NCBI GenBank assembly: GCA_014654415.1
Contig: JACWDC010000001.1
Span: 62,001-126,000, forward strand
DNA: 64,000 nt
Direction: 5' to 3'
DNA from: Pelagibacterales bacterium SAG-MED05
GTDB taxonomy: Bacteria > Pseudomonadota > Alphaproteobacteria > Pelagibacterales > Pelagibacteraceae
Shown here: positions 44,455 through 44,520 of the stretch, one piece after another
Layout: each line of letters starts with the position of its first letter
Position numbering within the stretch: position 1 is the stretch's first letter
The notes under the pieces: model-generated
Databases searched by the model: none
What the model saw: the letters and a program-made list of their open reading frames with translations, nothing else
What the model was told of the DNA's origin: nothing
Translations under genes and position numbers: made by a program

Positions 44455-44481
44455 AATTATTTAAGTAAAAAGATAACAATT

Positions 44482-44512
44482 CAGTTTATAATTATTCTAA
44501 ACTGTAAGTCAA
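44482..44512 (-). promoter_or_regulatory. katG promoter with overlapping Irr/Fur-type operator
   Basis: On the minus strand TTGACT (complement of 44507-44512) and TATAAA (complement of 44485-44490) are 16 bp apart. The inverted repeat CAGTTTA-N9-TAAACTG (44482-44504) covers the spacer and the -10. Its core TTTATAA-TTA-TTCTAAA differs by one base from the palindrome TTTAGAA-N3-TTCTAAA described for Irr (ICE). Binding there would block RNA polymerase. Confidence 0.6.
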
Positions 44513-44520
44513 TATGAAAT

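Follow-up and report, generated by a model that had tools for sequence, protein, structure and literature searches.

A predicted Irr operator over the katG promoter of SAR11 bacteria and the exchange of peroxide enzymes behind it

In Pelagibacterales bacterium SAG-MED05, the catalase-peroxidase gene katG lies directly downstream of a gene for a Fur-family regulator, which raises the question of whether the short spacer between them carries an operator of this regulator and, if so, which signal governs the enzyme. SAR11 bacteria are among the sea's most abundant heterotrophs, and an Irr operator at this place, if true, would provide a testable rule for the timing of peroxide-enzyme production in SAR11 and would exemplify the exchange of an enzyme while its regulator and operator stay fixed. 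In the available part of a 2011 paper, cultured P. ubique was described as having no catalase homologs, and the removal of peroxide by rarer microbes was proposed (PMC3033426). KatG in SAR11 is not new, because the available text of a 2024 report already describes it from the South Pacific gyre (PMC11366302). SAR11, katG and Irr were found together in no paper of our literature search, the coverage of which did not extend to the Rodionov 2006 regulon study; Irr, katG and rubrerythrin occurred together in two papers.

The fabA-irr-katG locus and its regulator

In the window, i.e. the whole stretch of 64,000 nucleotides that was analysed, katG (42298..44454, minus strand) encodes a catalase-peroxidase HPI of 718 aa, which matched NCBIfam TIGR00198 with 1113 bits (cut-off 770) and the Pfam peroxidase family. 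Upstream of it on the same strand, an irr-like gene (44521..44934, minus strand) encodes a Fur-family regulator of 137 aa. The divergent neighbour fabA (45028..45528, plus strand), followed by fabB (45528-46739) and then by fabI (46740-47525), is the anchor of the locus. The regulator matched the Fur family (Pfam PF01475) with 62.4 bits at a cut-off of 23.1. The best of the nine NCBIfam models was IrrA with 145.4 bits, below the cut-off of 150, while the Irr model gave 130.4 bits (below the cut-off of 170), PerRB 73.3 bits (cut-off 250) and the other PerR models lower values. The first and third histidines of the Irr histidine motif SHHHF were present in 107/107 aligned Irr proteins and the second in 104/107, and the heme regulatory CP motif was present in 0/107. 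The metal ligands of PerR are H37, D85, H91, H93, and D104. In the aligned Irr proteins, the PerR-type ligand positions, assigned by alignment to 2fe3, were conserved as H37 (107/107), D86 (106/107), H92 (107/107), H94 (107/107), and D105 (107/107). Since this set is conserved in all Irr classes aligned, it does not separate peroxide sensing from iron or heme sensing. There is no cysteine among the 137 residues of the window protein, and therefore no Cys4 zinc site. A second Fur-family protein with a weak Irr match (E 3.3e-8) is encoded at window positions 62015-62353, and a similar second, weak Fur-family match was observed in the genomes of many relatives.

The katG promoter and its core in relatives

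The spacer between katG and the Irr-like gene, both on the minus strand, is 66 bp long. An earlier note on this DNA, made from the sequence alone, had described in it the perfect dyad CAGTTTA-N9-TAAACTG over the spacer and -10 of a TTGACT-N16-TATAAA promoter, and the sequence reads as described: the 7-N9-7 dyad spans 44482..44504, the predicted -35 hexamer TTGACT lies at 44512-44507 and, after a spacer of 16 nt, the predicted -10 hexamer TATAAA at 44490-44485, both hexamers on the minus strand. The nearest regulator gene, which the note had called Irr-type, is best matched by the IrrA model; the distance between the dyad and its stop at 44521 is 16 bp and not the 17 bp given there. The core of the dyad, TTTAGAA-N3-TTATAAA with TAA in the middle (TTTAGAATAATTATAAA, 44485..44501, minus strand), agrees in 13 of 14 specified letters with TTTAGAA-N3-TTCTAAA, which we take to be the consensus of the Irr box or iron control element (ICE). 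The one-letter departure counted in the note is thus correct, and the ICE had been named there ahead of the comparison of relatives. With TTATAAA for TTCTAAA, TCTAAA becomes TATAAA, so that one half-site of the predicted operator doubles as the -10 hexamer.

Of shuffled 66-bp spacers, a fraction of 0.18 contained an inverted repeat with arms of 7 bp and a loop of 3-15 nt. Because a chance of about 0.18 is expected in such an AT-rich spacer, the palindrome alone is weak evidence and was rejected as proof of a site. A terminator reading of the dyad was set aside on sight, as no T-run directly follows it. CAGTTTA-N9-TAAACTG occurs as a single exact copy in the 969-kb genome, at katG, and the ICE within 1 mismatch occurs in two places, the katG promoter and one inside a coding frame. 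Near-matches at up to 2 or 3 mismatches were not above the mirrored control (64 vs 125 for the ICE, 93 vs 112 for the dyad).

The relatives were compared over their fabA-irr-katG stretches, the named records belonging to Pelagibacteraceae and Pelagibacterales (SAR11); they are non-independent samples, and an absent irr may be missing assembly because many of the genomes are incomplete. The palindrome, whose conservation before katG the earlier note had made the test of its reading, is kept in its core. The core TTTAGAA-N3-TTATAAA was exact at 80 of the 83 irr-adjacent katG genes of the genus, own included, and the remaining three had 1, 3 (G103), and 4 mismatches, one each. The mirrored control pattern came within 1 mismatch in none of the 83 loci. 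The count of 80 is descriptive and no test, because the core was defined on the same loci; set beside the absence of the mirrored pattern, it places the element above chance. The TTTAGAA half, which lies in the promoter spacer, was unchanged in 81/83 irr-adjacent loci, and the letter departing from the Irr box was A in 80 and G in 1 of 81 loci. The best-scoring -35 hexamer among spacings of 15-19 started with TTG in 78/81 loci, and its distance was 15-17 nt in 79/81. The outermost letters of the dyad were not conserved generally among the loci. A compensatory change of the outer arms was seen by eye in the window's close relatives only and was not significant over 81 loci. In 28/81 loci (e.g. 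L116, L118, L133), exactly 8 nt separate the end of the -10 hexamer from the katG ATG, so a leaderless or nearly leaderless mRNA is predicted there. Upstream of irr, 57/89 loci have a box with at most 1 mismatch to the core, the window's copy (TTTATAATATTTTTAAA, 44949..44965, minus strand) being degenerate with 2 mismatches to the core. This box probably represents autoregulation.

The exact core is also associated with the presence of irr. A KatG match was found in 95 of the 121 same-genus genomes; katG stands beside irr in 83 of them, and 12 have no strong Irr match (E <= 1e-38). Among these 12, seven katG genes were readable and none had the exact core, the mismatches being 1 in G005, 2 in G060, 3 in G071 (one of two KatG matches scored; 7% contamination), 4 in G003 and G094, and 5 in G023 and G085. 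These seven genomes are mutually related, perhaps representing three or four events, and are 57-87% complete. The other five (G001, G045, G053, G059, G097), where katG is incomplete or broken or lies at the end of a contig, were not judged. In G005 and G060, irr is missing from its place and fabA is the direct neighbour of katG. G263, a complete genome from a different genus in the family, has KatG and lacks both a strong Irr match and the box. In the second family of the order, katG standing apart from irr has a box at 1 (G134), 0 (G160), and 1 (G166) mismatch, and in G122, where irr adjoins katG, a 2-mismatch box lies at the same promoter position. Some katG matches contain internal stop codons (G058:C5, G045:C13, G097:C3) and are possibly decaying genes or assembly errors. 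The co-loss of irr and katG was dropped as evidence: of the 22 same-genus genomes without strong Irr or KatG match, 20 have no strong fabA match either, which fits loss of the whole locus or missing assembly. In G020 (94% complete) and similar same-genus genomes, no strong fabA, irr or katG match was found, which suggests that some SAR11 lineages lost the whole fabA-irr-katG locus.

Enzyme exchange and boxes beyond the locus

A strong Irr match was found in 87 of the 121 same-genus genomes, own included, together with KatG in 83 and rubrerythrin in 4; none of the 87 had both enzymes or neither. In the four rubrerythrin genomes (G002, G034, G051, G079), irr is present, katG is absent and rubrerythrin occupies its place. 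Their loci carry two boxes of the same type, one of them over the -10 of a TTGAC-type promoter. Over the 174 genomes of the order, 99 had KatG only, 44 rubrerythrin only, none both, and 31 neither, counts that are confounded with phylogeny and drawn from incomplete genomes. Outside the order, G177 and G182 carry both KatG and rubrerythrin.

The KatG tree of the genus comprises lineages A and B (support 0.996 and 1.0), which are about 70% identical. The Irr proteins of G030 and G093 are separated by zero branch length, yet their KatG proteins fall into different lineages, A versus B. In bins of 150 columns, the identity of the two DNA sequences is 93-99% in the 1200 columns that lead up to the katG ATG and 89% in the first 300; it falls to 53-77% from the ATG to column 4200 and is 89-94% further on, except for 61% in the last bin at the alignment end. 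Judging from this profile, katG was replaced at its locus, with regulator and promoter left almost unchanged. In the alignment of L048 and L057, columns 1500 to 4200 are the part in which katG is exchanged in place between the two lineages, with flanks mostly 89-99% identical. In G054 (L077), irr is present, KatG is of lineage A, and the box in the irr-katG spacer has decayed to 4 mismatches, perhaps a loss of control that followed an enzyme exchange.

Among the second-family genomes that were opened, rubrerythrin and a Cys-rich protein with a CCG domain frequently come after irr. An exact TTTAGAA-N3-TTCTAAA was found just after irr in 8 of the 24 second-family genomes scanned, six of these dyads preceding rubrerythrin (G123, G125, G126, G138, G148, G149) and two standing without rubrerythrin there (G160, G166); in the other 16, including G121, no exact dyad was found beside irr. 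Two complete genomes from another genus of the own family represent one arrangement each, irr-rubrerythrin in G411 and irr-katG in G345, the latter with TTTAGAACCATTATAAA over the -10. The irr-rubrerythrin neighbourhood also exists in other alphaproteobacterial families, where the best box between the two genes has 3 mismatches to the ICE in G174, 4 in G176, 2 in G177, 1 in G182, 2 in G184, 0 in G191, and 2 in G198. Because it recurs in these families, the arrangement looks ancestral.

The strict pattern TTTAGAA-N3-TT(A/C)TAAA has one exact copy in the own genome (G000), the katG box. In the 83 genomes with irr and katG, 160 exact boxes were counted, of which 127 are katG or irr boxes and 33 lie elsewhere (0.40 per genome). 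Off-locus exact boxes numbered 4 in the 22 genomes with neither gene (0.18 per genome) and 10 in the 12 genomes with katG and no strong Irr match (0.83 per genome), so there is no irr-linked excess outside the locus. The mirrored control gave 195, 53, and 30 for the three groups, respectively, and is a poor yardstick for exact counts because its base order differs. No iron or heme regulon was seen with the strict exact box in these counts, which were genome-wide and not by gene name; a regulon of weaker boxes may be present, indistinct from background. In the loci opened, the intergenic exact boxes lie before katG or irr, save in L182 and in the L188/L295 type. In L188 and L295, an exact box recurs at the stop codon of an alanine-dehydrogenase-like frame, and neither a tRNA nor an Rfam RNA was found at it. 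The box-like TTTAGTACGATTATAAA, common to G033 and G105, was rejected as it lies inside a reading frame. At position 1501 of L300 (G035) and L302 (G093), a 1-mismatch box TTTAGAAT(A/T)ATTTTAAA precedes the gene of a TAT-signal protein by about 80 nt; the protein, by eye perhaps a transporter binding protein, is a possible further target. TTTAGAATTATTATAAA recurs away from irr in four second-family genomes (G125, G126, G138, G148), and in G126 and G138 (L265, L278, position 1501) this exact Irr-type box lies between divergent 1-Cys peroxiredoxin and MBL-fold genes.

Outside the genus, 12 of the 57 scored katG upstream regions had an ICE-like site with at most 3 mismatches (shuffle P <=0.015), and the mirrored pattern reached 3 mismatches once and 2 never in the same 57. 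The other 13 of the 70 outside-genus katG regions had no start and were unscored. In several other families, irr lies close to katG, for instance in G272, G351, G390, G417, G228, G286, and G425. Among these, a box is present in G351 and G417, none was found within 250 nt of the katG start in G390, G228, and G425 (outside the order) despite the nearby irr, and G272 and G286 were unscored. Predicted Irr-type sites are linked with katG beyond SAR11, but patchily.

Proposed mechanism, signal and known systems

The conserved element on the katG promoter is very probably an operator of Irr. We hypothesize, and consider it fairly probable, that an Irr dimer at 44485-44501 blocks the polymerase at a slot for peroxide defence and is released by peroxide and/or heme. 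A dimer on the dyad would cover the spacer and the -10 of the katG promoter and keep RNA polymerase off; the position of the site suits the direct blocking of RNA polymerase put forward in the earlier note. The asymmetric letter (TTATAAA, not TTCTAAA) would let the right half-site serve as the -10 at the same time. In such a slot, regulator and operator would stay, and rubrerythrin, KatG A or KatG B would stand behind them. We infer from these features that Irr binds and represses at katG; repression would most likely be lifted when peroxide causes Irr to be oxidised or lost, with metal or heme as the sensor. The switch was kept while the enzyme was exchanged, and the regulator may therefore serve peroxide defence rather than iron housekeeping. 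As a tentative extension, to which we incline less than evenly, SAR11 Irr could have left iron regulation altogether and become a dedicated peroxide switch, with a PerR-like metal site, a slot filled by recombination, and a compromise letter in the operator.

The signal can be weighed from both sides. The box targets are peroxide enzymes and the PerR-type ligand positions are present in at least 106/107 Irr proteins, which favours peroxide; moreover, the available text on B. japonicum describes an oxidative self-degradation of heme-bound Irr (PMC4700492). The earlier note had named heme or iron status as the signal and the heme need of the enzyme as the reason. According to this classic logic, katG would be repressed at low heme or iron and Irr would be inactivated by heme binding, which we regard as rather unlikely. 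It has in its favour that the family is, by name and by model, nearest Irr, that KatG and rubrerythrin both need iron, so that iron sparing fits, and that Irr of other alphaproteobacteria binds heme also when the heme regulatory motif is missing, as stated in the available part of PMC3413700. On the other hand, few exact boxes lie off the locus (33 in 83 genomes, compared with 4 in the 22 that have neither gene and 10 in the 12 that have katG alone), the non-heme rubrerythrin replaces KatG under the same box type, and one second-family box stands between peroxiredoxin and MBL-fold genes; heme or iron status as the signal and the heme need as the reason were not supported by the comparison. Furthermore, iron limitation of P. 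ubique was accompanied by a 1.57-fold increase in rbr mRNA (P 0.025; PMC2864753, Table 1, from the part of the paper available), a small effect and, if rbr stands under a box there, the opposite of classic Irr repression at low iron. The same part of that paper groups P. ubique irr with stationary-phase genes (PMC2864753).

The remaining explanations concern the element itself. It is very improbable that the sequence is conserved merely as a strong promoter: the right half is indeed a -10 hexamer and TTG-type -35 hexamers are common, but a promoter has no need of the TTTAGAA in its spacer, intact in 81/83 irr-adjacent loci, and the exact core is absent from all seven readable same-genus katG genes without strong Irr match. 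Moreover, the exact dyads by irr in other families, including G191, read TTCTAAA and contain no -10. We give hardly any credence to the operator belonging to another Fur paralog, such as the protein of window 62015-62353, or to an unlinked regulator; a second, weak Fur-family match does occur in many genomes, but G005, G060, G003, G094, and G071 keep it without the exact core at katG. Activation of katG by Irr through this site would be in line with the title of a paper cited in PMC2864753, which, as it appears in the available part, assigns both positive and negative control to the iron control element. We consider it most unlikely, as a site over the spacer and the -10 should leave the polymerase no room beside the dimer.

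The putative Irr operator of SAR11 resembles the Irr/ICE systems of Rhizobiales and Rhodobacterales in its Fur-family protein, its 17-bp dyad, and its repressor-type position, and differs from them in lying on katG itself and in showing no wider regulon with the strict box. Among the genes relevant to this comparison, mbfA is rubrerythrin-like and ccpA encodes a cytochrome c peroxidase. In R. sphaeroides, according to the available part of a study, Irr has no heme regulatory CP motif and binds at the promoters of mbfA and ccpA; katE lacks both an Irr box and binding by Irr, yet is raised by the deletion of irr (PMC3413700). With the PerR repressors, the SAR11 regulator shares a peroxide-defence target and, by alignment, the five metal-ligand positions; unlike them, it is nearest to the Irr family in sequence (PerR 73 bits vs 250) and has an ICE-like putative operator. 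PerR also has a structural Cys4 zinc site, whereas the window protein has no cysteine. OxyR, a member of another protein family, is a peroxide regulator that controls katG mainly as an activator, and the SAR11 locus is alike in that katG would stand under a peroxide regulator, but unlike in that this regulator is of the Fur family. The predicted operator is ordinary in kind and unusual in its tie to a peroxide-enzyme slot with a changing occupant.
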